From assembly GCA_015488615.1 (NCBI GenBank), contig WFNM01000046.1, positions 1 to 49,021 of the forward strand: a stretch of 49,021 nt of DNA, written 5' to 3'. The stretch comes from Sulfurimonas sp. GTDB taxonomy: Bacteria > Campylobacterota > Campylobacteria > Campylobacterales > Sulfurimonadaceae. Below the pieces are notes generated by a model, which had not been told where the DNA came from, searched no databases, and saw nothing but the letters and a program-made list of their open reading frames with translations. Below, piece by piece: positions 3,121-46,188 of the stretch (positions within the stretch are counted from its first letter, which is position 1; each line of letters starts with the position of its first letter). Both the position numbers and the translations under genes were made by a program.

Positions 3121-3141
3121 AACTTTTCAAGAATACTTTGG

Positions 3142-3162
3142 CAGTTATCTAAAGGATAACTG
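3142..3162. terminator. Hairpin between convergent lon and receiver gene, probable bidirectional terminator
   Basis: A perfect 8-bp stem (CAGTTATC / GATAACTG) with a 5-base loop lies between the two convergent genes. It overlaps the last codons of the minus-strand receiver gene. On the plus strand it is followed, after a few bases, by a T-rich stretch. The position fits a terminator for lon. A role on the minus strand is weaker because the T-tract there is poor. Confidence 0.55.
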
Positions 3163-3526
3163 TCGCAATTTTCTTTAGTAAATCATCTTTTTTAATAGGC
3201 TTCATTAAAAAACCATTTGCACCACACTCTAGTGCTTCTACTTTCTTTGTTTCATCTGTTGTTAAAACGATGATAGGAAGTTGACGTATGTTATCATCAG
3301 CCCGTACAACTTTGAGCATATCTATCCCACCCATTATAGGCATAATAATATCAAGTAGAATAAGGTCAATATCATCACGACCTTTAAGCTCTCCAATAGC
3401 ATCAGAGCCATTTTTAGCCTCTACAACCTCTTTTACATTGCCGCTCTTCATTAGCATTGATTTGAGTAGTTTGAGGTTGATCATATCATCATCAACAGCT
3501 AAAACCACTAAGTCAGTTTTTATCAT
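3149..3526 (-). CDS. Single-domain response regulator (CheY-like receiver)
   Basis: This 125-residue protein is a stand-alone receiver domain with no output domain. All catalytic positions are present: the acidic pocket Asp12-Asp13-Asp14, the phospho-acceptor Asp59 in LLDIIMP, Thr89 in VLTTDE and Lys109 in FLMKPIKK. It should therefore be phosphorylatable. The gene is last in a minus-strand run PAS, Hpt protein, hybrid kinase, receiver, and lies 12 bp after the kinase stop. The simplest role is the terminal or diffusible receiver of that phosphorelay, signalling by protein contact as CheY does. Whether it targets the flagellar motor cannot be told from the sequence. Confidence 0.93.
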   Translation of the reverse strand: MIKTDLVVLAVDDDMINLKLLKSMLMKSGNVKEVVEAKNGSDAIGELKGRDDIDLILLDIIMPIMGGIDMLKVVRADDNIRQLPIIVLTTDETKKVEALECGANGFLMKPIKKDDLLKKIATVIL

Positions 3527-3538
3527 ATTGTTTTTTCC

Positions 3539-6500
3539 TTATATATATTTTTGTATGAGAGCATCTAAGATATACCTATCCACTCTATTTGGAATGATCT
3601 CGTCAACAAATACTCTATCTGATTCATTAATTGTTAATAGTGCATCGTTAATGAGTATAAGTGCGGAACTAAGTCCTCTAATATCATTCAATTCTTTCAC
3701 ATGTTGGCTAAAGGTACTTATATTTAACTCCCTGCAACCACTATCAAAAAGTATGATTTTATAGCTATTTACTTCTATCATATCTAAAAGAGTTTTAGTG
3801 GAGTCTGCAAGATCATATTCATAGCCAAGAGAGTCAAGGATCTTTGTGAAAAATTTTGTTTCAAAAGAGCTCTTTTTTACAAGTAAGATATCTTTTTTAT
3901 AAGAAAATATTTCTTTTTCTGCTGTTTCTTCTTCTGTCTTTAACTCTAGCTCGTCTGGCTCAGTAATTTCTAAGTCACTTTCTTCTTTTATTTGTGGAGG
4001 TAAGATCTCTTCTGCTTTGATAGCTTCTTTGCTTTGACTAGCCTCCTCAACTATATAGTCTGTTAGAAAGTGGTTTAGAAGTGAAACAATCTCTGCACGA
4101 ACTAAAGGTTTTGTCGTGTACTCATCAAGACCAGCTGCTAAAAAACGTTCTTTGTCACCCTTAAGTGCATTTGCAGTAAGTGCTAAGATAGGAACATGTG
4201 GTTGATTGAAATCTTCTTCATACTCAAGTATCGCTTGAGTTGCTTCCATACCATCTAAGAAAGGCATTTGAATATCCATGAAGATAAGATCAAAGTTGCC
4301 ATCTTTACGCTTTTGGAAAGCTTCAAGCCCATTAGAAGCGATACTAATTGTAAGACCTAAATCCTCAAGTGTACGTTTAATAAGCTTCTGGTTGATAATA
4401 TTATCTTCAGCAACAAGTACATTAGCATTAAACTTTGATGTCTCAGCATTAAAGTTTTTGCGGTTTACTTTTTTTGCTCTTTTAGCACTAAAATTATCAC
4501 TATGGTAGTTATCTAATACGAGACGGAGTTTAGAATTATTTAAAGGCTCGTAAAGAGTTTTAAAGATATCTAAGTCCATAGAGTCTATTTTCTTCATAAA
4601 ATAAGATTTAGTAAGAAGAATAAACTCTTGAGGGAGATTACTATAGGCTTTTAATGATTTTTCATCTGCATAATCGTAATCAATAATGATTAAATCATAG
4701 TTGACTTGGCGTTGAAGTGTTTCAAGTTCTTGTAAATCTTTAAATGATGTATAACTAACAGCATAAAAGTCAAGATATTCACGAAGGTAAGTCTCTTGGC
4801 GTTTTATTTTATGGGTAGATTCTAATATGAGGGCATTAATACTAGAGAATGTTCCTTTTGTAGACTCGTTAAGTGTCTCAATCTCTTCAAAATCGATAGT
4901 GAAGAAAAATGTAGTTCCTTCACCAGGCTCAGAGTTAAGGTCAAGCTGACCACCCATAAGCTCAATAAAACGTGAAGAAATAGTAAGTCCAAGACCTGTT
5001 CCACCATACTTACGAGTAATAGATGTATCAGCTTGAGAGAAGGCATCAAAGATTCTTGCTTTTTGCTCACTAGTAACACCGATACCACTATCTTGCACCT
5101 CAAAACGGATACGAGTGATACCCTCTTGTCCAGAGTCAAGTTTTCTAATGTCAACATTGATAGCACCAGCACTACTTGTGAACTTAACAGCATTTGAAAG
5201 AAGGTTAATGATAACCTCTTTAATCTTAGTAGGATCACCTTTAATAGGAGACTCAAGCTCAGGATCTATAAAGAAGCCAAGGTCAATATGTTTTTCACTT
5301 GCGCGTACTGCATATACATCAACAGCAGACTCAAATTCTTCTGCAGGATTAAATGCGATATCTTCAATCTCGAGTTTATTTGATTCGATTTTAGAGAGGT
5401 CAAGAATATTGTTGATAATCTCAAGAAGGTTCTCCGAACTCTTTTCAATGATTTCAACGAATTCAGTTTGTTCTTCTCCTAGTCCAGTATCTTTAAGAAG
5501 TTCTGTAAATCCAACAATACCATTAAGTGGTGTACGAATTTCATGGGACATATTTGCAAGGAACATTGATTTAGCTTCACTTGCATCTTGTGCTGATTCT
5601 TTATCATGTCGAGTTTGCTCAATAATCTTTTCTAAAAGTGCATAAGCTTCAGCAGTTCCTTGTGCGGTGTGAAGGTTGATATCTATATGCTCTGCATTAT
5701 CATCTGTATCTTCGGCAACACGCTTAAGTACCTCTTCAAGGTTTTTGATATTTCTAGCAATTTCATTAGAGAGTAAAAAACCAAGAATAGCGAGAATAAC
5801 AGAAACTAGCCAAATCGCAAGAGTGATTGCAAGAGCTTCAAGTGCATCTGCTTTTACTATAATCGCACGTTTATCCATAGCATTTAAAATAATATCTTCT
5901 GCTTGAGAAATAGCATCTATTTTTTCTGAAAGCATAGTAAACCAGATACCAGAAGTGATATCATAGTCTCCATTTTCTGCCTTAGCAATAATATCTGTTC
6001 TCTCTGTGTTAATATCATCAAATAATTCTAAAGTATCTTCATTTTTAAAGATAGTATCGAGTTTTGATACAAGAAGTTTATTTTTTAGTGTTGAGTATGT
6101 TAAAGCATCAGATTGAGAGATAAGTTTTATCCACTCATTTACCTCTTCCTCTCCAAGTGAGGTTGATCTTGCGATAACAAAAGAGATAAAATCACGTTCA
6201 TCTGATGTATATTCTGAAGCACGTACAAGTGCAATATATTCGGCAGCATAAGAATTAATTTTTGGATCAAGCTGATTAGATGTAATCTCTTCGAGTTGTT
6301 TTATTGCCTGATGCTGTAGTGAACCATATACATCTTTATAAACTTCTTTGAAATTAGTTTGATGTGAATCTACAAGTGTACGTGTTTTTTTGAGTTTTTG
6401 AAATGTATTTTTAAGAGTTTGCACATTTCTGCATGTTGGACAATTTTGTATACCATTTGAATGATCATGTAAAACTTTTTTATTTCTAACATTGTTAACA

Positions 6501-6781
6501 TATGAGTTTTCTTGTTTATCAACGACTAGACGCTGTTTTTTTAGGGAACGAAGAGTATTTGGAGATGAATTCCCAAGGTACATAACTGTCATACCACGTT
6601 CACGAGATATATTATTTACAAGGATGTTAAGCTCTCTATTTTCAGAGAGTTTATCTTGTAGAATCTGTGCTGCTTTATAGTTGTCGTAAGAGTGAAATAC
6701 AAAATAACTAGTAATGACGAATAATAGTACAATTGGAAAAAGACTGATTAGTCTTAGTCTATTTTTGAGTCCGATTTGCAT
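3539..6781 (-). CDS. Membrane hybrid sensor histidine kinase with NIT-type sensor and three receiver-like domains
   Basis: The protein has 1080 residues. One membrane segment lies at about 11-30, then a periplasmic region to about 314 with an N-terminal NIT-like signature ([13 protein letters not shown], 58-70), then a second membrane segment at about 315-337 and a short HAMP-like linker. The kinase core follows: HisKA with His413 (MSHEIRTP) and a HATPase domain with N-box near 527-531, DSGIGV at 564-569 and [10 protein letters not shown] at 593-602. Three receiver-like modules come next. The first (about 648-760) and third (about 962-1080) lack the acidic pair and look degenerate. The middle one (about 787-905) is canonical, with Glu792-Asp793, Asp836, Thr869 and Lys891. 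The sensor region contains His105, His107 and a Cys114-Pro-Thr-Cys117 pair. An AAGGAG ribosome site precedes the start. NIT domains are linked to nitrate/nitrite sensing; the ligand here is unknown. Confidence 0.93.
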
Positions 6782-6797
6782 AAGCTAAAGTCTCCTT

Positions 6798-8387
6798 TTA
6801 TAGTGCTGCAAGAGCAGTTTTAATAGAATCTAGAGTATCTCTTAATTCTTGTGTATCTGAAGAGTTAATAAGTGTTTCTAATGCTTCACTAAAAGAGCTT
6901 ATCCTCATATTGTCACTCATACCTTTAAGTTTGAGGGCTTCGCTTTTACAAGTGCTGAACTCTTGAGTATTTATTGCTGTGCTGAGTGATTCTGTAAGCT
7001 CCTTAGCTTCTGCAAGATAATCTTTAAAGAGTTCATTAAAGCTTTCTATGTCTAAACCTATATCATTTGCTACTTGTTCTTTATCGTAAGACTCTACAGG
7101 AGGTGCATTATTTTCAATTACCTCTTCTTGAATGTCTTCAGTTATATCCTCAAGCTCAAGTTCTACATCAGAAGCTAATGTAAATTCATCTTCTTTAAAT
7201 GTATCATCAGCGAGTTCTGCAATCTCTATCTTTTCTGGTACTGCCGAATCATCTACTTCTATTGGGTCTGAGTAAAGATCATCTTCTTTGAAATCTAAAT
7301 TCAAAGTCTCTTCATCAACTTCTATTGGTTTTACATCAAGGAGTACTTCTTCTTCTATGCTAATCTCTTCACCTGCGAGTTTCGCTATAATATTGTAAAA
7401 TGTATCAAGGTTTTCTTTGATTATGTTGATGTCAGAAGATGTATTTACTGTAGTAAGTGCTTCAAGTGCATCTTCTATTCGAAGGTTTGCTGCAACACCT
7501 TTAAGTTTATGAGAAAGGATTTTTAAGTTGTCAAGGTCACCGTTGTCCACTGCCGTGTATAAACCTTCTTTGAAGTCTTTTGCTTGAATGATAAAGTCCT
7601 GAATAAATTCTTCTATGAGATCTAGAGGAAGTCCAAGCTCATCAGAGGCTACTGAAGGATCATATGTGTAGCCATTATCCAAGTTCACCTGTACTGTTTG
7701 TATTTTTACTTCTTGAAGTGTATCATTCTCTTTGGTATCTATAAATTTAAGATCATCTTCAAGATTTGAAGTTATTAACTCTTCATTGAAATCTTCAACT
7801 ACAATCTGCTCTTGCGGAGTTTTTTCTTGTTCTACTGTAAGAAACTCTTCTTCATCTAGTGTAATATCTAATGGTGTTTCATATGGGTCTATAGTGAGAT
7901 TAGGATTAGTAAGCCCTGTGTCAAAAGTATCAACATTTACTTCTTCTTCTTGTTGAAGAGTTTTATTTGGTGTAGTCGTTAGAGTAGGTGTTTGTACTAT
8001 TGCTACTGGTGCTTGTCTTTCAATGATATCACCGGAGATACCTTCACTTTCCTTTATAGTAAGCTCACGTAAGTGACTTAAATAAACTATATAAGCTTTA
8101 AAAGTTGGGTTATCTACAAGGTAAGTAGTGCTTATCTGTACTATTGCCCTGTAGTTTTTATTATTAACATTAATAATAACTTTTGATTCTTCGTTTGATT
8201 CTGCACATGTAATAAAGTCTATCCAGTGTACATGTTTAAAATTATGAATATAACCAGGGGTTTTTACAAAGAGATCTGCAAAGTCATTTACTTCTTTTTG
8301 TAATCCTTGTAGATTTTGAAACCCTAAGGCTCGCAAATCTTTTTCATCAATACCTAAAAACTCTTTTTTATAATTATAAATTAGCAT
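6798..8387 (-). CDS. Hpt-domain phosphotransfer protein with two Hpt modules, the second lacking the acceptor His
   Basis: The N-terminal 110 residues form a compact domain of unclear family, perhaps PAS-like (aromatic-rich, with a HNFKHVHWIDFI stretch). Acidic low-complexity linkers separate this from two similar helical modules. The first (about 241-340) contains SHKLKG, with His293 as the expected phospho-acceptor of an Hpt domain. The second (about 434-529) aligns well with the first, but the same position reads ALKLKG, so His is replaced by Leu485. The second module therefore probably binds receivers or helps dimerise without being phosphorylated. The gene sits 14 bp downstream of the PAS gene and 16 bp upstream of the hybrid kinase, so it is the natural phosphotransfer partner of that kinase and the following receiver. 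An AAAGGGG ribosome site precedes the ATG. Confidence 0.85.
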   Translation of the reverse strand: MLIYNYKKEFLGIDEKDLRALGFQNLQGLQKEVNDFADLFVKTPGYIHNFKHVHWIDFITCAESNEESKVIINVNNKNYRAIVQISTTYLVDNPTFKAYIVYLSHLRELTIKESEGISGDIIERQAPVAIVQTPTLTTTPNKTLQQEEEVNVDTFDTGLTNPNLTIDPYETPLDITLDEEEFLTVEQEKTPQEQIVVEDFNEELITSNLEDDLKFIDTKENDTLQEVKIQTVQVNLDNGYTYDPSVASDELGLPLDLIEEFIQDFIIQAKDFKEGLYTAVDNGDLDNLKILSHKLKGVAANLRIEDALEALTTVNTSSDINIIKENLDTFYNIIAKLAGEEISIEEEVLLDVKPIEVDEETLNLDFKEDDLYSDPIEVDDSAVPEKIEIAELADDTFKEDEFTLASDVELELEDITEDIQEEVIENNAPPVESYDKEQVANDIGLDIESFNELFKDYLAEAKELTESLSTAINTQEFSTCKSEALKLKGMSDNMRISSFSEALETLINSSDTQELRDTLDSIKTALAAL

Positions 8388-33959: not shown

Positions 33960-36900
33960 CTATTTCCTTTCAAGAACACAGCTATTCTGGTAGATAAATT
34001 TATAATCTCTAGGGTAACGAACATTAAAGACTATTGAGTATAAGAGAGGAAGTACTCCAAGTGTGAGTACAGTCGCAAAACTTAGACCAAATATTATAGC
34101 AATAGCCATAGGCTCCCACATAGGTCCACCACTGATCCAAAGTGGAATAAGACCACCAATGGTAGTTGCAGTTGTCAAGAGAATAGGGCGTATACGTCTT
34201 TGTGCAGCTTCTATAATGGCATCTTGAGGGGAGAGTCCTGTTACCTCAAGCTCATAGTCTATTCTTTCTATGAGAATGATTGCATTATTAATAACGATTC
34301 CAATAAGTGAGATTATTCCAAGGTATGTCATAAACCCAAAGTAAGAGTTTGTGAGAAAAATACCGAAAATAACTCCGATAATTCCAAGTGGAATAGTCAT
34401 AAGAATAAGTCCAACTTTTTTAAACGAGTTAAACTGCATGACAAGGAGTACAATAATAATCATAGCTGCAATAGGAAGTTTAGCTGAAACTGCACCCTGT
34501 GCTTCATTAGAACTTTCAACTTCTCCGCCAAATTCATAACGATAGCCCATTGGCCATTTTTGTTTTTTTAGCCACGGTTCAACGGCTTCTTTTACATCAA
34601 ATGCAGTAAAACCTTTTTTAAGTTGTGCTGTTACAGTCATTGCATGTATTCCATTATAACGAACTATTTTAGGTGGCTTCCACACAACATCTATATTTGC
34701 TACTTGTGTAAGTGGTACTGACTGACTTGTAGTCGGGATAAAAACGAGTGTTCCTTCAAGGGTTTCTAATGAAGATTTAAGTGCATGGTTTGACCGCATG
34801 GTGATAGGGATAGTTTTTGTATCTGTCCTAAACTGAGTAATATCTCTACCATTAAGTGCTGTCTGGAGCGAGGAAGCAATATCATTATAGCTTACACCTG
34901 CATGATAGGCTAGTGCTGGATTAATATCAACTACTAGTTTTGGTGTCCAGACTCCCCAGTTATCACTAAGATGATACACCATTTTTGTATCAGCAAGTGC
35001 ATGTTTAAGTGCTTTAGCTTTCTCTCTGATAATGTGAATATCCTTACCAATTATTCTTATTTGCACAGGATTTTTTACAGGAGGACCATTATCAAGTTTT
35101 TTAACACTTATCTCTGCATTAGCGAAATGATTATAACCAAAAAGCTCTATCTGTGGTTGTATTTTTTCATATGCTTTAAGGGATACTGCATTTACGAGGA
35201 TTTCTGCATACTCATCTGCATTTGGAAGAGGTGTATTGTTGATCCAAAAACGTGGAGCACCTTTTCCTACAAAGCTTGTATAGTTTTTTATAAACTCTGG
35301 ACGTTTGGACTCTAAGTAATGCTCCATCTCTTTTACTGTTTTGAGTGTTTGATCTATTGAGGTACCAACTGGAAGTGAGATTCTAACAACCATAGAAGGT
35401 TGATCAGAAGGTGGAAAAAATATTTTCGGTATACCTAAGGAGAGGATGAGTGCAAAAATAAATAAAGCAATAACAGCGAAAAGTGAAACTGCTCTGTATT
35501 TAAGTGAATCGACAAGTATAGTTTTAAAGGCATTACAGTATTTGTTTGTATAAGAAAATTTTGCCGTCTGTCTCGGTCTTAAAAATTTATAAGTAAGCAT
35601 TGGAACGATTGTAAGACCTAAGAACCATGAACTCATAAGTGTAATAAAAACAACTTCAAAGAGTGAAGAGGTATAATCACTTGCAGTAGATTCTGCAAGG
35701 TAGATAGGTAAGAATGCAGCTGCTGTTGTAAGCGATGAAGTTAAAAGCGAAACATGTAACTCTTTTACTGCATTCGAAGCAGCTTTTATTGGACTTTGGC
35801 CTTCATCCATCTTGACAATTATAGACTCACTAATAACAATAGAATTATCGACCAATAAACCAAGCGATATAATGAGTGCGGCAAGAGAAACCTGATTGAG
35901 TCCAATATCTAACTGCCACATTATAAAGAGAGAGGTTAAGATAGTGCTTGGAATAAGCGAAGTAACAATGAGACCTGTTCTCCATCCTAAAGTAGCAAGC
36001 ATAACAGCCATAATAATGATAATTGCAATGATAATTGAACTTGTAAAGTTATGGACTATGTGTTCAACAAGATTTGGTTCATCAAATGCAATACTAAATT
36101 CAACTCCAATAGGATATTGATTTTCAAGATAGTCAATTTTCTTTTTTACATTTTTACCAAGTGCAATAATATTTCCCCCATTTGCTACGGAGACAGCAAG
36201 TATAAGACTCTGCTCAGAGTTTGATCTTGTCATTGGGTCTTTTGGTTCACTATACCCTTCTCGAATAGAAGTTATATCCTCTAAATAAACAACATCTTGA
36301 CGACCAGGTAAAGGAATAATAGTCTTTCCTAGCTCTTTTATACTTTTGAGGTTTCCAGTAGGTTCTAGTGTTAAACACTGGGGACCGATAATGATAGATC
36401 CACCTGGAGTAATAATATTTCTAGCACGAATGATATTACTTAGAGCATCAGGAGAAAGACCTAATTCAGCTAGTTTTGAGTTTGAAAATTCTACATAAAT
36501 GTGCTGTTCTTGTAGACCAACTATCTTTACACTCCCTGCATTAGGGAGTGTGATGATTTCATTTTTAACATCATTTGCTATTTTTTCGAGTTGAGAGTAG
36601 GAAAATCCTTCTCCCACAATATTTATAAGTGTTCCGTAAACTTTGTTGAAATTTTCATTGAGTTTTGGCTTGCTTACTTCTTGTGGAAGGTCAGTGTTTT
36701 CTATCTTTTTACGAATTTTATTCCAGATAGGCTCTAAGTCCTTATACTTCTGTTTTACATCAATATAAATAGTAGAAATACCATTTTTTGAGGTTGAATC
36801 TATGGTATTTATTTCGTTTATTTGCTTAAGTTGACGCTCTAGTGGAATAGTAACAAGTGACTCTATTCGACTAGGTGTTGCTCCTGCAAAAACAGTAGTG

Positions 36901-37043
36901 ACCACGGCGGAATGAATAGCGAAGCTAGGATCTTTAGCACGAGGCATACTAAAGTAAGCGACTACCCCACCTATAAGAAAAAAGAGCAGTAAAACAAGGG
37001 TTACCCGATCTTTTTCAACGACTAGTTCTGTATAAGACTTCAA
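33960..37043 (-). CDS. RND-family efflux pump inner-membrane transporter (AcrB-like)
   Basis: The 1027-residue transporter has the RND plan: one N-terminal helix, a large periplasmic porter region, helices 2-6, a second porter region (about 540-830) and helices 8-12. Helix 4 carries LGLLVDNSIVIS with Asp399-Asn400, where AcrB has Asp407-Asp408. The helix 10 region reads IVINNAIILIE, lacking the AcrB Lys940. Proton coupling thus uses the single-Asp version seen in part of the family. The start overlaps the adaptor gene by 4 bp, and the outer-membrane gene overlaps the adaptor. The three genes form one tripartite operon in the order outer membrane factor, adaptor, pump. The substrate is unknown; a drug or organic solute is likely rather than metal, since no CusA-type methionine set is seen. 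Confidence 0.95.
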   Translation of the reverse strand: MKSYTELVVEKDRVTLVLLLFFLIGGVVAYFSMPRAKDPSFAIHSAVVTTVFAGATPSRIESLVTIPLERQLKQINEINTIDSTSKNGISTIYIDVKQKYKDLEPIWNKIRKKIENTDLPQEVSKPKLNENFNKVYGTLINIVGEGFSYSQLEKIANDVKNEIITLPNAGSVKIVGLQEQHIYVEFSNSKLAELGLSPDALSNIIRARNIITPGGSIIIGPQCLTLEPTGNLKSIKELGKTIIPLPGRQDVVYLEDITSIREGYSEPKDPMTRSNSEQSLILAVSVANGGNIIALGKNVKKKIDYLENQYPIGVEFSIAFDEPNLVEHIVHNFTSSIIIAIIIIMAVMLATLGWRTGLIVTSLIPSTILTSLFIMWQLDIGLNQVSLAALIISLGLLVDNSIVISESIIVKMDEGQSPIKAASNAVKELHVSLLTSSLTTAAAFLPIYLAESTASDYTSSLFEVVFITLMSSWFLGLTIVPMLTYKFLRPRQTAKFSYTNKYCNAFKTILVDSLKYRAVSLFAVIALFIFALILSLGIPKIFFPPSDQPSMVVRISLPVGTSIDQTLKTVKEMEHYLESKRPEFIKNYTSFVGKGAPRFWINNTPLPNADEYAEILVNAVSLKAYEKIQPQIELFGYNHFANAEISVKKLDNGPPVKNPVQIRIIGKDIHIIREKAKALKHALADTKMVYHLSDNWGVWTPKLVVDINPALAYHAGVSYNDIASSLQTALNGRDITQFRTDTKTIPITMRSNHALKSSLETLEGTLVFIPTTSQSVPLTQVANIDVVWKPPKIVRYNGIHAMTVTAQLKKGFTAFDVKEAVEPWLKKQKWPMGYRYEFGGEVESSNEAQGAVSAKLPIAAMIIIVLLVMQFNSFKKVGLILMTIPLGIIGVIFGIFLTNSYFGFMTYLGIISLIGIVINNAIILIERIDYELEVTGLSPQDAIIEAAQRRIRPILLTTATTIGGLIPLWISGGPMWEPMAIAIIFGLSFATVLTLGVLPLLYSIVFNVRYPRDYKFIYQNSCVLERK

Positions 37044-38110
37044 TTTTTTACTCGTACATGTTGGCCTTCATGAACACGACTCATCCCAGCAGTTAAGACA
37101 TGAAGATTATTTCTAACACCACTTCTAATAATAATACCATCCGTTGTCAGTTCTCCTCGTTTTACATCACGTCGCTCAATAGTTCCAACACCTTCAACGA
37201 TATCGACAATAATATAAAGATAGTAACCCTTTTCATCTTCCATAAGTGCATAAACAGGGACAACAAAACTATTTTTATTGAGTTTATTATGGAAATCGAA
37301 ACGCACTGATGCTGACATTCCTGGGTGAATCTTTTTAGAGTGTTTTATAAGGCGTACAACAACAGGGAAAGTTGTTGTTCTTTTACTAGAAGCATGACTT
37401 ACTTCTGTGACTATTGCATCAAATTTTTTATTAGGGAGTGCATCGAAAGTAACCTTACACTTCTGTCCTTCTTTTGCATAATCAATAAGGGAACCTGGGA
37501 CACTTATTGGTACCTCAATATTCTTTGTTGAAGAAATGGAAGCAATTTTTACAGCTGGTGTTACATTTTCGCCCTTATGGATTGTAAGATCGGAAATAGA
37601 TCCATTCATAGGTGCACGAAGTTTTGTATAACTGAGTTTTAGTTCTGCTTGTTCGAGACGATTTTTCATGGCACGGTAGTTTGCATTTGCAGAGTCTTTT
37701 GTTGTTCGAGCATTATCAAGATCACTTTGTGAACTACTTCTGTTGACATAGAGTTGCTTGATACGCTTGTATCTGCTCTTAGTATTTTCTAGTTTTACAC
37801 GTGCTTGTTTAAGAGAAGCTCTTACTTCCGCAACTTTAAGTTTGAAAAATGAGTCATTAAGTATTGCTATGATATTTCCCTCTTTCACTCTTTGTCCATC
37901 ACGAATATAAACACGTTTAATTGTACCATTTACATTGAAACTCAAGCGTGCAGCAACATCTGAACGTGCAATTCCATTAAAACTATGTGTAAAAGTTGCT
38001 TGTGATGCGACTAACTTCATCGTTCTTACAAGGCGAATCTTCTCTTCAGGTTTCTTATTATTGCAACCAGCTATAAATAGTATTAAAACTATTAGTATAA
38101 GTTTTTTCAT
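37040..38110 (-). CDS. RND efflux periplasmic adaptor (membrane fusion protein), lipoprotein
   Basis: The 356-residue protein begins with a lipoprotein signal (LFIAGC, Cys16), so it is anchored in the inner membrane. Standard adaptor domains follow: lipoyl halves (FNVNGTIKRVYIRDGQRVKEGNIIA and LSYTKLRAPMNGSISDLTIHKGENV), a helical hairpin between them (about 80-155), a beta-barrel and a membrane-proximal domain ending GMSRVHEGQHVRV. It should link the AcrB-like pump to the TolC-like channel. Its start codon overlaps the stop of the channel gene by one base and its stop overlaps the pump start by 4 bp. Confidence 0.94.
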   Translation of the reverse strand: MKKLILIVLILFIAGCNNKKPEEKIRLVRTMKLVASQATFTHSFNGIARSDVAARLSFNVNGTIKRVYIRDGQRVKEGNIIAILNDSFFKLKVAEVRASLKQARVKLENTKSRYKRIKQLYVNRSSSQSDLDNARTTKDSANANYRAMKNRLEQAELKLSYTKLRAPMNGSISDLTIHKGENVTPAVKIASISSTKNIEVPISVPGSLIDYAKEGQKCKVTFDALPNKKFDAIVTEVSHASSKRTTTFPVVVRLIKHSKKIHPGMSASVRFDFHNKLNKNSFVVPVYALMEDEKGYYLYIIVDIVEGVGTIERRDVKRGELTTDGIIIRSGVRNNLHVLTAGMSRVHEGQHVRVKN

Positions 38111-40491
38111 TACTTTTCCTCATCTTCGTTATCATCATCATTCTCATTGTGTGTTGTTAGTGCTGTTATAAATTTTTTCCAAGTATTTTTATCTAAGTTA
38201 AAGTTTACCTGTCCTATATTATGTTGTAAAATAAGTAAATCACCCATAAAAGAGTAGCGAGTATTGTTTTCAACAAGTGCTGCTCTAAGTGCAACATTTT
38301 GGGCATCAAGTAGATCAACTATTCCTATACTTCCTTGAGCATAAGCACTTTTTATAAGTTGGAGGTTTTTCTTTGAACTTGCAGAAGCACTCTGGGCTAA
38401 TTTTATAGAGAGATAAGATGCTTTTGCTTGGTAAAGTGCATTTCGTACATCTTTTTCCACCTTGTTTGTGAGTGCTTTCCTTTGTGCTTTTGCTATGAGA
38501 AGTGCTGCTCGAGATGCTTGAAGTACTGCAGTTTTAGCTCCACCTTCATAGAGAGGAAAACGTAAAAATATTCCTATTTTCCAGTCTGTATTATCCGCAT
38601 AGGGAGGAAGGCTAGCTTCTAGGTTAGGATGAGTCTCTCTAAAAGTGTTCACAGGATTTAAAAAGTGTTTTTTTATTCCACCTTCTACTGTGATTGTTGG
38701 CATATAAAAAGCATCATCGTTTGAGGCTACAATAAGACCTCTGGCTGTTTCGAGTGCATCGTATTGCTTTAGAGACGGCATTTGTATCTTTGCTGTTTTA
38801 ATTAAAAAAGATTCAAATTTCGAAAATTTTGTTTGGTCTAAAAAATATGTTTTCATTATTTCATGGTGTGTCATAAAGACTTTATTGGACATATCAATAT
38901 GTTCAAAGTTAAGAGGAAGACCTTGCGGTAAATCAAGTAGTGCATTGAGACTGTGCTTTGATTGTTCTATTGTTGCATGTGTAAAGAGAACACTTTTCTT
39001 CTCTCCAGCTATTTGTGTTTGCCATCTATAAATATCACTAGAATTTCCTATACCAATTCTTTGTTTCGTGATTGCAGAACGCATATTTGTCTTGGAAAGT
39101 TCTAAGTTGTTTTTTTCAATTGCAAGTTTTGTGCGTAGTTGTAAAATACGAAGATAATTAAGAGAAGCGGCAAGTCCAATATCTAATTTTACGAAGTCAG
39201 TAGCATTTTGTTGTGCTTTGAGAAAATTTTCATTGACACTGATTTGTGCTAAAAGTTTTTGATTCCATATCTGTTGGGAAAATTTTATATAAGCATTAGC
39301 ATCAACTTCATTACGGGATCCTAAGCTTGCAATTGCTCTATCTTGATCAATTTTCACAGATTCAGCACCTACATGAACTTGAGGTAAGTAAAAACTATCT
39401 GCTTTGTCTAAGTCTGCCTTTGAAAGATCAACTTGATATGTGCTTGCAAGTACTGAGAGATTGTGTTGCACAGCACGATCCATTATATCATTAATATTAA
39501 AAAAGTGAGAATCACTCTCTTCTCCTTGAATAATAGTTGCTTTACTAAGTAGATCCCAACTTGGTGTAAAATTGATTGCTTTAGCTGTATTCATATTTAT
39601 AGATAGTGCTGGGTTAGGTGTAAAGTTTACTAACTGTTCAGAAGCATTTGAACCAAGTGCAATCTGCTGTGCATCAAGAGCAATTTGGCGAATAAATCGT
39701 TTTATATCTGTAGGAGGTGAGTCGGCAAAAAGGGCACCTAACTCTACATCATCTTGACCAGCAGCTGCATAACTAGGAAGTTCACGAATAATTAATCGTT
39801 CATATATTTTAGCTCTTTGTGCTGCGGTTTGCTGAAAAAGTGGTGTGACATAAACGATATCAGTATCATCTGTTATTTTGTCTAAATCTTTATTTATATT
39901 TTTTCCAATAGGGATAAGCTCAACTTTTATATGTTTTTTCTTAAAGCGTCTATTGATGTAGCGACCAACTTCTGGTGTATTTTTAAGTAAAACAGCATCT
40001 ATTAAAACTGCAATTTTTTTAATAGGCATAAGTGAAGTGATGACATTAATATCATCATTAAGCGTTTGGTTTGCACTTACATAAGTTAAGTTCCATTTTC
40101 CAGACATTCCATTTTTGTAAGGTATTTTCTGCATTTTAGGATCTATAATTTCAGTTGCAATAACTGGTTTTGGAAATCTGTGCTTGCGTGCGATATAGTG
40201 TGAAGAGAGGACACCTAAGGTGATGATCATATTTGAACGAGGATTTTTAAGCGACTTATTAATATTTGCAGCTATTTTCGTATAGTTCCAGTTTCCATTT
40301 TTATAAAGTTTTTTTGGAAATTTTACATTATAGTCTGCAGAGAGTAGTTGAATAATCTCTGTTTTTAGTGCACTATCAAGAGCCTGACTGTATTCTGTAT
40401 TACCATCTGTTAGGATAGCGATATTGTAAGTAGGTTTAGCAAAGAGCGAAGAGAGTAGAATGAGAAAAAGAAAAAATATTTTCATATACAA
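38110..40491 (-). CDS. TolC-family outer membrane factor with N-terminal ABC-substrate-binding-like domain
   Basis: The protein has 793 residues, against about 420-490 for ordinary TolC proteins. After a signal peptide (1-18), residues 22-322 look like an ABC-type substrate-binding domain of the ABC_sub_bind class: NIAILTDGNTEYSQAL, MIITLGVLSSHYIA, PVIATEII, KKIAVLIDAVLL, DTDIVYVTPLF, LPSYAAAGQDDVELGALFA. From about 330 to 780 it is an outer membrane efflux protein with two long coiled-coil repeats (for example LKAQQNATDFVKLDIGLAASLNYLRI and ALYQAKASYLSIKLAQSA). The tail is acidic. The reading frame is continuous with no sign of assembly error. The fused domain may bind the exported compound in the periplasm. 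A TATAGT box lies upstream (40521-40526). Confidence 0.88.
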   Translation of the reverse strand: MYMKIFFLFLILLSSLFAKPTYNIAILTDGNTEYSQALDSALKTEIIQLLSADYNVKFPKKLYKNGNWNYTKIAANINKSLKNPRSNMIITLGVLSSHYIARKHRFPKPVIATEIIDPKMQKIPYKNGMSGKWNLTYVSANQTLNDDINVITSLMPIKKIAVLIDAVLLKNTPEVGRYINRRFKKKHIKVELIPIGKNINKDLDKITDDTDIVYVTPLFQQTAAQRAKIYERLIIRELPSYAAAGQDDVELGALFADSPPTDIKRFIRQIALDAQQIALGSNASEQLVNFTPNPALSINMNTAKAINFTPSWDLLSKATIIQGEESDSHFFNINDIMDRAVQHNLSVLASTYQVDLSKADLDKADSFYLPQVHVGAESVKIDQDRAIASLGSRNEVDANAYIKFSQQIWNQKLLAQISVNENFLKAQQNATDFVKLDIGLAASLNYLRILQLRTKLAIEKNNLELSKTNMRSAITKQRIGIGNSSDIYRWQTQIAGEKKSVLFTHATIEQSKHSLNALLDLPQGLPLNFEHIDMSNKVFMTHHEIMKTYFLDQTKFSKFESFLIKTAKIQMPSLKQYDALETARGLIVASNDDAFYMPTITVEGGIKKHFLNPVNTFRETHPNLEASLPPYADNTDWKIGIFLRFPLYEGGAKTAVLQASRAALLIAKAQRKALTNKVEKDVRNALYQAKASYLSIKLAQSASASSKKNLQLIKSAYAQGSIGIVDLLDAQNVALRAALVENNTRYSFMGDLLILQHNIGQVNFNLDKNTWKKFITALTTHNENDDDNEDEEK

Positions 40492-40643: not shown

Positions 40644-41990
40644 TTAGTTATGAGGTTGGAGTTGGCAACCTACACCAGCGATGTAACCATATTTAGTAGT
40701 TCCATTCGCATCAAACCAATCGAGGTTTACCGTCCCATCAAAGACAAGTGTTCCTTTTATAAGGAATGTTCCTCCATTGTTTGGATATGTTAAACTCATT
40801 GTAATATTGTCAACTGATGCATTGAAGTCTACTTCTCCTTTAATAGCTGGTTCGAGATTGTTTCTTGCATCATGTATAAGTCCTACTACTGTACCATTTT
40901 TCTCTATATCAAATGTAAATAGTCCTAAAATAGGGTCTGATGATGTATTTTCATCACTGCCATTGTTGTCATATCCAAAACCAGTATATCGGTAAGAAGA
41001 ATTATCTGCATTACCAACGCGAGATGCTTTATATGAACCAACCTCTATTTTATTTGTATTAGGATTTTTTTGCTCAAAAGAGCCAACTACATTGTTATAA
41101 TCTAGTGATCTTCCATCACCTTTGATAACCTGAGTACTTGGGACAATACTTCCACTAGTTGTGTTAAACTCTCCTGTTTCATTAAATATATAAGAACCAG
41201 TATCCATATTATGTGTTCCGCGTGCAAAAAGGTACTCTTTTGCTATACCATCGCCATTAAGATCCTGCCCATCACCAAGTGCAACTATTGTTCCTAAAGA
41301 ACTATGAGGGTCAACTGTATTAGAAGATTGGATCATAACTCCAACGAAGCCACTTTTGGCCCCATTTTGTAGTATATACTGTCCGCTATATGCACCAGAG
41401 TATATACATCGAAGCTCATCTGCAAATTGTTTTTTTGCTTCAGCTTTAGTCGTAATGAGTTTAGTATCAAAATAGTGGCCTGTTGAGCTTTTTAACTCAT
41501 TTGTGAAAGCTGATTCAGCTAAATTATAATCTGGTGTTGACCATTTCTTCGCTGCTACTCTGGTAGCATAATTTATTTGGATACCATTCGCAGTATTGTT
41601 GTCATCGTCTAGGGACATTAAAACTCTGACACGATTATTTACTTCGTTGGAATTGATGGAAGTATTCAACTCTAGGTTTTTATAAGATACAATCTCTTTT
41701 GGAGTAAGGATAGCAAGTCCAAGAGCTTCACCAAGCTCTAAGTTTCCTATATGAAACATGATAGGTTCGCCAGTTCTATAGTCATAAGTTGAATCTTTAG
41801 TGGTGAGTTGTGCTACTGGAGCGAATGTACGAGTATATTCTAAACCATCTACTCTATTTATAAAAACACCTTTGTTTGGTGCTCCCATTATAGGTTCCGA
41901 ATGAAGGCTTAAATCTTCTACACTTGAACCACAACCATTTAGGAGAGTGAGAGTTGAGAGAACAAGTGAACTCAGTAAAGTAAATTTCAT
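40644..41990 (-). CDS. Surface or periplasmic lipoprotein, function unknown
   Basis: The 448-residue protein has a lipoprotein signal with Leu-Asn-Gly-Cys (Cys20). Residues 40-140 match a domain I know from assorted bacterial lipoproteins and adhesins: GVFINRVDGLEYTR, YDYRTGEPIMFHIGNLELG, LTPKEIV, then RVRVLMSLDDDNNTANGIQI. Later parts are beta-rich and Asn/Gly/Ser-rich, with an EF-hand-like DLNGDGIAKEY that could bind calcium. No enzyme motif is seen. The start lies 8 bp after the FadL-type gene stop, so the two share a message. A terminator follows at 40588-40621. Confidence 0.75.
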   Translation of the reverse strand: MKFTLLSSLVLSTLTLLNGCGSSVEDLSLHSEPIMGAPNKGVFINRVDGLEYTRTFAPVAQLTTKDSTYDYRTGEPIMFHIGNLELGEALGLAILTPKEIVSYKNLELNTSINSNEVNNRVRVLMSLDDDNNTANGIQINYATRVAAKKWSTPDYNLAESAFTNELKSSTGHYFDTKLITTKAEAKKQFADELRCIYSGAYSGQYILQNGAKSGFVGVMIQSSNTVDPHSSLGTIVALGDGQDLNGDGIAKEYLFARGTHNMDTGSYIFNETGEFNTTSGSIVPSTQVIKGDGRSLDYNNVVGSFEQKNPNTNKIEVGSYKASRVGNADNSSYRYTGFGYDNNGSDENTSSDPILGLFTFDIEKNGTVVGLIHDARNNLEPAIKGEVDFNASVDNITMSLTYPNNGGTFLIKGTLVFDGTVNLDWFDANGTTKYGYIAGVGCQLQPHN

Positions 41991-41998
41991 AATAACTC

Positions 41999-43534
41999 CT
42001 AAAATCTATAGTTTATGCCACCTGAGAGACTCAGCTGTTGCATTTTTGTTTCATAGTTGTAGTCAAATGCAGACAAGCCACTATAAACAAAATCAAGAGG
42101 AAGGAGTGTACCACTACGTGAGACAGTAGACTCTGGTGAGAATACTATAGCAAAATCAAAGTCCATATCCTTGCTAAATGCATAGCCTAAACCAGCTGTG
42201 AAGTGAGTAGTAGAAATAGCTGGAAAACCTACTAGGTTCAACATAGAGAGTGCTTGATCAAAGACATAGTGTCCTTGCACATTGGTAAGGAGTGAACCAA
42301 ACTCTCCAGTAGCATCTTTAATAGGAGAATTTGCATAGTTATAACCAGCTCTTACGATAAAGTGTTTTGCTTTGTACTGCATACCTAGTGCAAAAACATG
42401 CTGATTTTCCCAACCAAAGTCTCCATACCCTTCACTCTGCCCCCATGCAATATATCGATAGTCAGCTGTAAATGTCATTTTTTTAGTTACATCATAAGAG
42501 AATCCAAGAGCTATTTCAAAAGGCTGTTCTAGCGTTAAATCATCTAGATTTGCTGGATTAGTCGCATCTATGGCAGCACCGATTGTACTATCTGGCATGA
42601 GTGAGAGCAGTGCACTAGATGTGGCATCTGCAACAGATTGACTAACACCAGATGCTTGGAGTTTTGTTGAGAGGTCTGACTGTAAACTACCACCTTGAAT
42701 ACTTTGATTTGGTGTATTTTTAAGTGTGCCACCAAGAAACTCATCTGCCATATAAACCATTCCATTTGGACCGAACTGTGAGAAGTTAGCTACATCACTG
42801 TATGTATACTTGAGTGAAGAGTTATAGCTTGCACCGATACGGAGTTTTTCAGTTACTTTGATGTCTATACCAGCGGTAAATCCTAGAGCAGGAACCAAAG
42901 TATCTCCACCTATATTTGTTCCAAAGAGTCCTTTTCTATTTGATTGAGGTTTTGTGCCAGTTGGGTACATATTGCCATTAACATCCCTATAGGCTTCATC
43001 GTAGTTGAGGCTCATAGAACCAAGACCAAGAACAGGGGCTACACCAAAGGTTACATTCCCTTGTCTATAAGAGATAGCAGGAATGATTTTCATAAGCATC
43101 ATGGAAGATTTGAGTTGGCGTTGTGGATAATCGCCTTTATAGTTTGCCGCCATCCCCGCTGCTCCAATCATAGCCATACCAAAAACCATCTTATCATCTA
43201 CACGGCTAACATATGCCATAGAAGGTATGAAGTTTGTATCGAGCATATTTTGGCTACTAGCACTACCATTTCCAGCAGTACTAATGGGGTTACCATCTAC
43301 TACAGAGTTTGAGAGAGTTGCTTTAAAGTATGTCATGTCAAACTGAAACTCGTCTTTTTTAACATCACCTATCAAAGCGACATTTTTATGCATAGCATCT
43401 GCAGCATGAGTAAAAAATGCAACACCCGTTCCACCCATAGAACGAGAGACGGTAGATGTACCTATAAGGTTTACACCATTAGTTGCGAGAAGTGCTGAAG
43501 CTGCAAGAGAGAGTAGAAAAGTTTTTTTTAACAT
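41999..43534 (-). CDS. OmpP1/FadL-family outer membrane channel
   Basis: The 511-residue protein has a signal peptide (about 1-17) and a mature N-terminus, GVNLIGTSTVSRSMGGTGVAF, that matches the hatch region of FadL-type channels, although the usual Asn-Pro-Ala is not evident. The remainder alternates in barrel strands (TFTADYRYIAWGQS, KHFIVRAGYNYANSP, HFTAGLGYAFSKD) and ends in Phe (SGGINYRF), as barrels do. FadL channels admit fatty acids, hydrocarbons or other hydrophobic compounds. It lies between two lipoprotein genes, 126 bp from the upstream one. The substrate here is unknown. Confidence 0.9.
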   Translation of the reverse strand: MLKKTFLLSLAASALLATNGVNLIGTSTVSRSMGGTGVAFFTHAADAMHKNVALIGDVKKDEFQFDMTYFKATLSNSVVDGNPISTAGNGSASSQNMLDTNFIPSMAYVSRVDDKMVFGMAMIGAAGMAANYKGDYPQRQLKSSMMLMKIIPAISYRQGNVTFGVAPVLGLGSMSLNYDEAYRDVNGNMYPTGTKPQSNRKGLFGTNIGGDTLVPALGFTAGIDIKVTEKLRIGASYNSSLKYTYSDVANFSQFGPNGMVYMADEFLGGTLKNTPNQSIQGGSLQSDLSTKLQASGVSQSVADATSSALLSLMPDSTIGAAIDATNPANLDDLTLEQPFEIALGFSYDVTKKMTFTADYRYIAWGQSEGYGDFGWENQHVFALGMQYKAKHFIVRAGYNYANSPIKDATGEFGSLLTNVQGHYVFDQALSMLNLVGFPAISTTHFTAGLGYAFSKDMDFDFAIVFSPESTVSRSGTLLPLDFVYSGLSAFDYNYETKMQQLSLSGGINYRF

Positions 43535-43660: not shown

Positions 43661-46129
43661 TTAGTTAGCAGCTGTTGTGTTTGTGTCTGTATTTACATTT
43701 GCAGCATTTGAAGAGTCAAGACCGATAGCAGTAAGCGCATCGTTTCCATATCCTGTTAATGCATTCATAACAGCTTGTGTATCTTCTGGAGTGATAGCAC
43801 GAACTTTGTAGATATAAAGACCATCTAGTGTAGTTCCATTAGCATCTACAGCAATGATAGAGTCACTACCCATATCTACTTTTGATACTTGAATGTCTTT
43901 AACAAGACCAGCAATAGCTGCTAAATCAATATCAGCTGTTTGATTTGTTGCATTGTCATCAGTTAATAAGTGATTATTAGTTGAAGCAACATAGATATCA
44001 AAGTATCCAGCATTAAAGTTAAAGTCTGTTGTTGCAATATTTGAGTTTGAATAGGCAGCAGGTACACTTAACCAATCAACCGCAAGTAACCAGTTTGGAA
44101 TATAAACATTGTCCGCACTTGGATAGAAATAATCACGAATATAAGTATTTGTACTAAGGTTTGCTAACCAGTCTGCATTTACATTCTTGTTATAGTAAGC
44201 CATAGCACCCTCAGTTGCAGTGTTGTAAGCAAAAGACATAGTTAAGTCAGCAAAAGGTGGTAAAGTAAATGCAGCTTTTGCATCAGCCATAGTGTAAGAA
44301 GCATTGTTCTCACATGTAACATCTAATCCATCAATATAGTCAGTACTTGCATTACCACAAGTTACTTTATAAATATCTTCTTGCATTGCAAGTTCGATAA
44401 GACCATGCATACCGTACACTTTGTCATTATTTACTAGACCATTTGAAATAATTGTAGGATAAACTGAAGCATTAGCATCGTTACGTCCATCTAAGAATGT
44501 GTCATAAGCAATATTAGCATTATCTTGTAATGTAGATAAAATAGACTTGTTACTATCTAAAGCAGCTGCTGAGATGTCTGAAAGACTAACATTTGACCAT
44601 GACTTAGCCAGAATATCTAAAGTGTCAATATACCAGCTTGAACCTAGAACACCTTTTCCAGCTGAACGTGAAGGAGCATTTGAAGCAGTTGTTGCATTTG
44701 CATCAGTTGCTGTATAGTTGTCCCATGCAGTTTGTGCAGCTGTACTAACACCAGACCATACATCTATACCATGGAAGTCAGCATAAGTATAACCAGCATC
44801 AACAAATGCTCTACCGTATGTCATAAAACGATCAGTTGGAATTAAACTAGCAAAACCAATAAATGCACCAGCATAAGAACCAAAACCATAGCCATTAGTA
44901 CGACCACTCTCTTTATCACCATAGATACCATCATACATTGCTGAACCGATAGCGATGATGTTTAGTTGCCCCTGAAGTGTGTCTGGATTTGCTGCACCAA
45001 CTTTACCACCTAAAAAGATATTGTCCATAAGCATTGTACGAGTTGTTGGATTAACTTGATCCATAGCTGCAACAAAGTCATTTGTTGTAACAGGTGTTTT
45101 AAATAGTGAGTAGAAGAATTTTTCATTCGTTAACTCATTACCGTCACCATGATTTTCAAAAGTGATAGTACCATTTGCATCTTTTTTATAAGTTGCATTT
45201 TTACCTGTATTTAAAAGAAGAGATACGAAGTTATCGTTAAGGCGTCGGTTACGATTAGTTATATTTTTGTCAGGAGTGATGAAATAGTCTTTAGCATATT
45301 CTTTCATAAGAAGACCCATATAAGCATTTGTAGAGTGCTCAACTGAACCAATAGTATAGCTTGTAGCTTTATCTTTGTTTGAAAGAAGCATAGCATCAGT
45401 TAAGCAGCCATACATTCTAGCATCGATACGTTCAAAGAAGAACTTAGCAATAATTGGTCTCTCATATGCAAGTGCAGTGAACTTCTCACCAAACTCAGCA
45501 TTGTCACGAAGCATAGGACACATTTTAGCAGTTAATCCCCAGTTAGCTTCAAGAGCATCAACCATAACTTGAGAAATAGTTTGGCTTTTACGTGCCGCAT
45601 CAAGCATAACTACTGTTACACCATCAGAGTTAAGTACTACATCAAAAGCAGCACCAGTAATCTTGTTACCAACACTTGTATCTAGTGCACTTACAACAGT
45701 ACTTTTCACCGCATTTACAAGAGGATTATCTGTAAGAATACTTCTTTGAGGTGCGTTTGCTGTCGTCGAAGTAGAAGTATTAGATGAAATCATCATGGCA
45801 GCTGCCATATTCTGTGCAGCCTCAGCAACTGTAGTGATAGAACTATTTTCTGCAATGATTTTATCCATAAGAGCTTTGATGTCAGTATCTGTTGCATAAA
45901 GGCTAAGAAATTTCATTGTAAGATCTGAAGTAGCTTGTGCTTGGTCTGCTTGAGTAGCACCTGCAAATGCATTTGTACTTGCATTATAGCTAGCAACTCT
46001 TTGTGCTTTGGCATTTTGAGCCGCAGCATCTACACCAGAAGGTGTTGTATCGCTAGAAGAGCTTCCACAACCTTGAAGTAAAAGACCCGCTAAAACTACA
46101 GAACCTAAATATGATTTTAAATTTGACAT
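43661..46129 (-). CDS. Large lipoprotein of unknown function
   Basis: The predicted 822-residue protein starts at 46129, where an AAGGA ribosome site sits 5 bases upstream; an in-frame ATG at 46186 would add 19 residues before the signal peptide and overlap the promoter, and is rejected. The signal ends in LLLQGC, followed by a Ser-rich linker, so it is a lipoprotein. The N-terminal third is Ala/Thr/Ser-rich and helical. The middle has conserved-looking aromatic stretches (AYERPIIAKFFFERIDARMYGCL, GYGFGSYAGAFIGFASLIPTDRF). The C-terminal part is Asn- and Asp-rich. No domain is recognised. It precedes the FadL-type gene, suggesting a role in the outer envelope, perhaps with a hydrophobic substrate. 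Confidence 0.72.
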   Translation of the reverse strand: MSNLKSYLGSVVLAGLLLQGCGSSSSDTTPSGVDAAAQNAKAQRVASYNASTNAFAGATQADQAQATSDLTMKFLSLYATDTDIKALMDKIIAENSSITTVAEAAQNMAAAMMISSNTSTSTTANAPQRSILTDNPLVNAVKSTVVSALDTSVGNKITGAAFDVVLNSDGVTVVMLDAARKSQTISQVMVDALEANWGLTAKMCPMLRDNAEFGEKFTALAYERPIIAKFFFERIDARMYGCLTDAMLLSNKDKATSYTIGSVEHSTNAYMGLLMKEYAKDYFITPDKNITNRNRRLNDNFVSLLLNTGKNATYKKDANGTITFENHGDGNELTNEKFFYSLFKTPVTTNDFVAAMDQVNPTTRTMLMDNIFLGGKVGAANPDTLQGQLNIIAIGSAMYDGIYGDKESGRTNGYGFGSYAGAFIGFASLIPTDRFMTYGRAFVDAGYTYADFHGIDVWSGVSTAAQTAWDNYTATDANATTASNAPSRSAGKGVLGSSWYIDTLDILAKSWSNVSLSDISAAALDSNKSILSTLQDNANIAYDTFLDGRNDANASVYPTIISNGLVNNDKVYGMHGLIELAMQEDIYKVTCGNASTDYIDGLDVTCENNASYTMADAKAAFTLPPFADLTMSFAYNTATEGAMAYYNKNVNADWLANLSTNTYIRDYFYPSADNVYIPNWLLAVDWLSVPAAYSNSNIATTDFNFNAGYFDIYVASTNNHLLTDDNATNQTADIDLAAIAGLVKDIQVSKVDMGSDSIIAVDANGTTLDGLYIYKVRAITPEDTQAVMNALTGYGNDALTAIGLDSSNAANVNTDTNTTAAN

Positions 46130-46188
46130 ATAATTCCTTTTTGTATTTTGGTTATTAAAAACGCAAATACATATGTTTGATTTCACAT

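Follow-up and report, generated by a model that had tools for sequence, protein, structure and literature searches.

The window analysed here, by which we mean the whole 49,021-nucleotide stretch of DNA from Sulfurimonas sp., contains a minus-strand gene cluster in which a TolC-type outer-membrane factor (OMF) is preceded, within one reading frame, by a domain with the fold of substrate-binding proteins. In the direction of transcription, the features are as follows:

43661..46186, minus strand: large lipoprotein-like gene of no recognised family, possibly the first gene of the cluster
41999..43534, minus strand: FadL/Toluene_X outer-membrane protein (PF03349)
40644..41990, minus strand: lipoprotein-like gene of no recognised family, just upstream of the fusion
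38110..40491, minus strand: fusion gene encoding a signal peptide, an ABC_sub_bind domain and a TolC/OEP domain; 793 aa when read from TTG
38110-40485, minus strand: the fusion gene from an alternative start, the ATG at codon 3, 791 aa
39523..40437, minus strand: mature N-terminal ABC_sub_bind-fold domain (N-domain), protein residues 19-323, from Pfam, model and profile matches
38113..39504, minus strand: TolC/OEP channel domain, protein residues 330 to the end, from two OEP matches and a model match to TolC
37040..38110, minus strand: RND periplasmic adaptor (TIGR01730, 223.5 bits against a cut-off of 94.9), with a lipobox-like signal (..FIAGC) on reading of the sequence
33960..37043, minus strand: RND pump of the AcrB/AcrD/AcrF family (PF00873, 550 bits)

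A first-pass annotation of this DNA had described a single open frame of 793 codons joining a substrate-binding-like domain to a complete TolC-like domain, and this is borne out on the minus strand by both Pfam and predicted folds; the plus strand of 38110-40491 has many stops. The ATG at codon 3 is the start position in relatives. In the Pfam search that had been suggested, both domains of the window protein score above the curated cut-offs, ABC_sub_bind (PF04392) at residues 54-318 (E 5e-8, 33.0 bits against 25.9) and OEP (PF02321) in two stretches (E 3.5e-30, 105.7 bits against 22). These two families are the only Pfam matches in the protein, DUF3828, the family of YbjP, being absent, and no lipidation signal is seen on the fused module when its sequence is read. 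The genome of the window has about ten OMF frames, of which the only long one is the fusion.

The gene content is that of a tripartite RND system, with an ACR_tran pump, an RND_mfp adaptor and an OMF in a single operon, and the overlap with the adaptor and pump genes reported at first pass amounts to 1 base between fusion and adaptor and 4 bases between adaptor and pump. The earlier picture of an unusual OMF architecture within an efflux operon, in which both folds had been correctly named, thus stands. No importer permease or ATPase genes lie beside the fusion, whose neighbours are the adaptor, the RND pump, the FadL gene and the lipoprotein-like genes. A lipoprotein-like gene similar to that at 40644-41990 recurs upstream of the fusion in L002-L004, and a FadL/Toluene_X gene is also found upstream of it in L042. 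Searches of Pfam and NCBIfam returned zero matches for the lipoprotein-like genes at 40644-41990 and 43661-46186, which flank the FadL gene; a promoter scan gave a site count not above that of shuffled sequences, and a repeat scan returned short imperfect pairs only. As a separate observation, the sequence of the window pump (33960-37043) reads VDN and INNAI at positions that we take to be those of the AcrB proton-relay motifs VDD and AKNAI, and by that comparison the pump has one of the paired Asp residues and is without the equivalent of Lys940.

An AlphaFold2 model of a single fusion chain, built from a 10-sequence alignment, contains both folds, a two-lobed class I binding-protein fold and a channel of beta-barrel and alpha-barrel, with a mean pLDDT of 83.8 and a pTM of 0.55, the angle between the domains being uncertain. 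By both Foldseek and VIA, model residues 312-750 align with TolC, CusC, OprM and CmeC; the counterparts of residues 2-305 are the ABC_sub_bind structures 3lkv, 3lft and 6hni. Target-normalised Foldseek TM scores run from about 0.66 to 0.79 for the best OMF matches and from 0.74 to 0.79 for these three binding proteins, and the VIA Z scores are 29-31 against the best-scoring TolC entries, aligned over some 400 residues, and 26-27.5 against the binding proteins. In a sequence search, a profile of the N-domain alone reached 3lkv (E 8.6e-11) and 3lft (E 3.3e-7). That the N-terminal part might have no substrate-binding fold, a possibility raised with the first description, is contradicted by the significant PF04392 match and by the fold matches to 3lft, 6hni and 3lkv.

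In the VIA alignment the TolC domain begins at model residue 313, which corresponds to residue 1 of mature TolC, so the extra domain is joined directly to the N-terminus of the channel. This attachment point lies at the equatorial belt, outside the channel wall, and substrate enters at the tip from the pump and adaptor. The fused domain should, by prediction, lie at belt level and away from the tip to which the adaptor delivers substrate, and a channel trimer should bear three N-domains around its belt. This is a site at which other attachments are known: according to PMC8277102 and PMC4790312, the N-terminal lipid anchor of OprM arises from the equatorial domain belt, and YbjP binds the TolC belt 3:3, with its lipid reaching the outer membrane (PMC13095208, PMC13082787).

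The fusion is present at full length in seven genomes, the window's own included, among 60 relatives. Across 397 Campylobacterota, the N-domain profile matched 11 long frames (782-884 aa) and five frames of standalone size (314-342 aa), and a scan of named genomes gave matches in Sulfurimonas MAGs, in one MAG each of Helicobacteraceae and Myxococcales, in Microscilla (Bacteroidota) and in one unplaced bacterium. Within sets that include the positive genomes used as set centres, matches occur in 22 of 345 genomes from the phylum of Microscilla (16 of the 22 with long frames, E below 1e-37), in 11 of 189 from that of the Myxococcales genome and in 3 of 28 from a further small phylum. Plasmids add two cases. 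A Cetobacterium plasmid carries a shortened fusion together with an adaptor and an RND pump (L114 5464-7644; hhalign probability 97%), its N-domain being about 50 residues shorter, and plasmid pSULKU01 of Sulfuricurvum kujiense encodes the fusion as WP_041667226.1, whose sole annotation is 'ABC transporter substrate binding protein'. Pseudomonadota, which were covered through plasmids, yielded no fusion in the plasmid search. A fusion restricted to Campylobacterota is ruled out by the cases in Bacteroidota, Myxococcota and the further small phylum and by the Cetobacterium plasmid.

OEP domains are present in every fusion that was run through Pfam. PF04392 is poor for counting: it is above its cut-off also in L042, L043 and L072 and below it in several other fusions, so that the N-domain of several true fusions was missed, and one genome (G000) was matched in one scan and missed in another. 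The fusion counts rely instead on two profiles specific to the family, A2 and A4.

That two genes were falsely joined during assembly has a negligible probability: the window does come from a fragmented MAG of 150 contigs, and yet full-length fusions of 67-88% identity occur in independent MAGs, the nearest copy being 84-88% identical, and distant ones lie on single-contig genomes and on a complete plasmid, which rules out the misassembled junction that the first-pass annotation had named as its own possible undoing.

The usual gene order is fusion, adaptor and pump, often with a TetR gene in front, and most of the fusions checked directly precede genes of adaptor size and RND size; Pfam confirms both the adaptor and the RND pump for the window, L043 and L047, the adaptor for L042, L044 and L066, and the RND pump for L115, the others being assigned by gene size. 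A second engine is found in Sulfurimonas (L035, L037, L064), in L067 and in S. kujiense, where a TetR gene stands in front and the partners of the fusion are a HlyD adaptor, an RbbA-type ATPase-permease and an ABC permease. These ABC-coupled fusions exclude a tie to the RND pump of the window, and the distribution is wider than the first-pass annotation had supposed, the fusion being neither confined to Campylobacterota nor always found with this pump. The ABC-coupled operon of L035 is followed by a gene for the outer-membrane protein LpxR (lipid A deacylase; 2678-3670), confirmed by Pfam, and similar ORFs lie at L064 2947-3939 and L067 3945-4955; their presence beside ABC-coupled fusion operons is possibly a hint of lipid cargo, and the FadL, LpxR and Phenol_MetA_deg genes found nearby hint weakly at a hydrophobic one. 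Two further fusions, L124 2242-5334 and L121 7293-10085, have an amino-acid permease and PhoX as neighbours, with no recognisable adaptor or pump adjoining.

In a maximum-likelihood tree of channel domains from 20 fusions and 15 standalone OMFs, all 20 fusions fall on one side of one branch with support of 100/100, a distribution that takes 1 change, against an average of 11.7 when labels are shuffled. Channel sequences thus support a single fusion event for this limited sample. The ABC-coupled fusions of Sulfurimonas and Sulfuricurvum form one clade nested within the RND-coupled fusions, from which it follows that the N-domain was retained through an exchange of engine; it would accordingly serve the channel, the adaptor or some cargo that the two engines share. 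Over 45 pairs, the identities of N-domain and channel run in parallel (means of 38.3% and 39.6%, r 0.988), which argues that the N-domain is under a constraint like that on the channel. The fusion is, then, real and conserved, has a single origin within the sample, and is undescribed in the open-access literature searched; the function of its N-domain is putative.

The solved relatives of the N-domain bind Trp, Phe or Tyr (PMC6816091), and in TrpX the ligand contacts are T108, A127, T129, D152 and N233 (PMC9382623). At the positions of T108, T129, D152 and N233, the window protein has V, I, A and Q. Strict retention among 12 fusions is 2/12 for T108, 0/12 for T129, 0/12 for D152 and 1/12 for N233; in the standalone relative L093 these positions read T, S, D and N, and the standalone L059 has T and S only. 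These replacements, at ligand contacts of TrpX and CD0873, exclude the known amino-acid binding mode in the fusions, though not the binding of a ligand by other contacts. Pocket positions differ between fusion subfamilies; within that of the window the pocket is fairly uniform, with I at the T129 position and Q at the N233 position in 5/5 members each. Elsewhere in Campylobacterota, PF04392 supplies the sensor module in PAS-histidine kinases and in a PAS-HD protein, whose conserved loops differ from those of the fusions. Most long PF04392 frames in that phylum fall outside the window's fusion family, and the three that were tested (L159 484-2691, L160 656-2848 and L161 251-2734) comprise two PAS-histidine kinases and one PAS-HD protein.

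Taken together, the fusion would serve a dedicated tripartite exporter as its outer-membrane channel, with a two-lobed binding-protein-fold domain as its mature N-terminus, and we infer that this domain acts on the channel itself, because it stays with the channel whichever engine is used. Our preferred reading, which is tentative, is that of a periplasmic collar that would position the channel and aid adaptor docking or channel opening, much as the N-terminal lipid of OprM and CusC and the lipoprotein YbjP do around TolC-type channels; the collar may also be tuned by a ligand bound otherwise than in the known amino-acid binders. Several points speak against it. Nearly all members have preserved the two lobes across 300 residues, which goes beyond the needs of a spacer and speaks for retained binding or a hinge motion, and the uniform pocket of the window's subfamily is what a subfamily-specific ligand would predict. 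The predicted placement of the N-domain is not fixed by a single-chain model with a pTM of 0.55, L121 and L124 have neighbours that cannot be recognised as adaptor or pump, and YbjP itself is dispensable, efflux still working without it under standard laboratory conditions (PMC13082787).

After the collar we rank ligand sensing and then substrate capture. The N-domain might bind a periplasmic compound or cue, close upon it and thereby alter the readiness of the channel to dock or open, which would make it a built-in regulator of export. The complete two-lobed fold, the fairly uniform pocket of the window's subfamily and the use of PF04392 as a sensor in the kinases and PAS-HD protein are all consistent with such a role, which we nonetheless consider unlikely, given that the known ligand contacts are replaced and vary between subfamilies, that the Cetobacterium form is about 50 residues short and that a TetR regulator is already present in several operons. 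The Cetobacterium fusion (L114 5464-7644) is in itself a natural test of which parts of the N-domain are needed. Likewise improbable is the broader proposition of an ancient, multi-phylum class of OMF whose channel would be gated or licensed by a built-in ligand-responsive periplasmic domain and which could run on an RND pump or on an ABC exporter alike. We know of no other OMF with a ligand-binding regulatory domain of its own, and the fusion would be the first if the ligand-gated reading were true.

The first-pass annotation had itself proposed that the N-domain catches the exported compound in the periplasm and passes it to the pump or channel. This too is doubtful, even if the fold is that of substrate-binding proteins and the operon is, by gene content, an exporter. 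A position at belt level, outside the wall and away from the tip, makes direct loading of the channel unlikely; by the VIA alignment taken with PMC8277102, the attachment is at the belt and not at the pump intake. The contact residues of the solved relatives are lost, and the N-domain persists with two engines, RND and ABC exporter, so the catching or loading of substrate is not supported. Least probable among the functional readings is that of a passive relic, a domain merely tolerated since one fusion event, which the variable pocket and the shortened Cetobacterium form would fit: a free passenger would decay, yet both lobes persist across phyla at the evolutionary rate of the channel.

With TolC, OprM and CusC (PF02321) the fusion shares two OEP repeats, the channel fold and an operon with adaptor and pump, but these known OMFs start with a short or lipidated N-terminus, whereas the fusion has a 300-residue binding-protein domain before TolC residue 1. 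It shares a common fold over about 290 residues with TrpX (3lft), VC_1101 (3lkv) and CD0873 (6hni), which bind Trp, Phe or Tyr and, in those cases that have been studied, are parts of import systems (PMC6816091, PMC9382623); in the fusion the contacts are replaced and no importer genes are adjacent. As with YbjP on TolC (PMC13082787, PMC13095208), an accessory periplasmic module would be placed at the equatorial belt with three per trimer, which for the fusion is a prediction, but YbjP is a protein in its own right, lipidated and from a different family, and the module here is covalent and apparently not lipidated. The proteins at L159-L161 likewise have an N-terminal module from the same Pfam family, followed by C-terminal signalling domains where the fusion has a channel. 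No description of a fusion of ABC_sub_bind and OEP (PF04392 with PF02321) was found in the open-access literature searched, and term searches of the OMF review PMC8277102 and of the TolC-like phylogeny PMC8809574 returned none in the text they covered.

The way in which OMFs are positioned, retained and opened remains a matter of debate, and YbjP, a partner of TolC, has been on record only since 2026. In the fusion, the same site of the channel carries a large domain that was retained through a change of pump engine and is found in several phyla, which opens the question of whether a periplasmic ligand can regulate an outer-membrane factor. The database names 'ABC transporter substrate binding protein' and 'TolC family protein' each hide half of the fusion. 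In Myxococcota, two fusion genes lie close together on one contig in three genomes (L122, and also G956 and G966); in L122 they stand in tandem (2497-4857 and 4907-7351), followed by one gene of adaptor size and one of pump size, and it is possible that the products of such paired genes form a mixed trimer.
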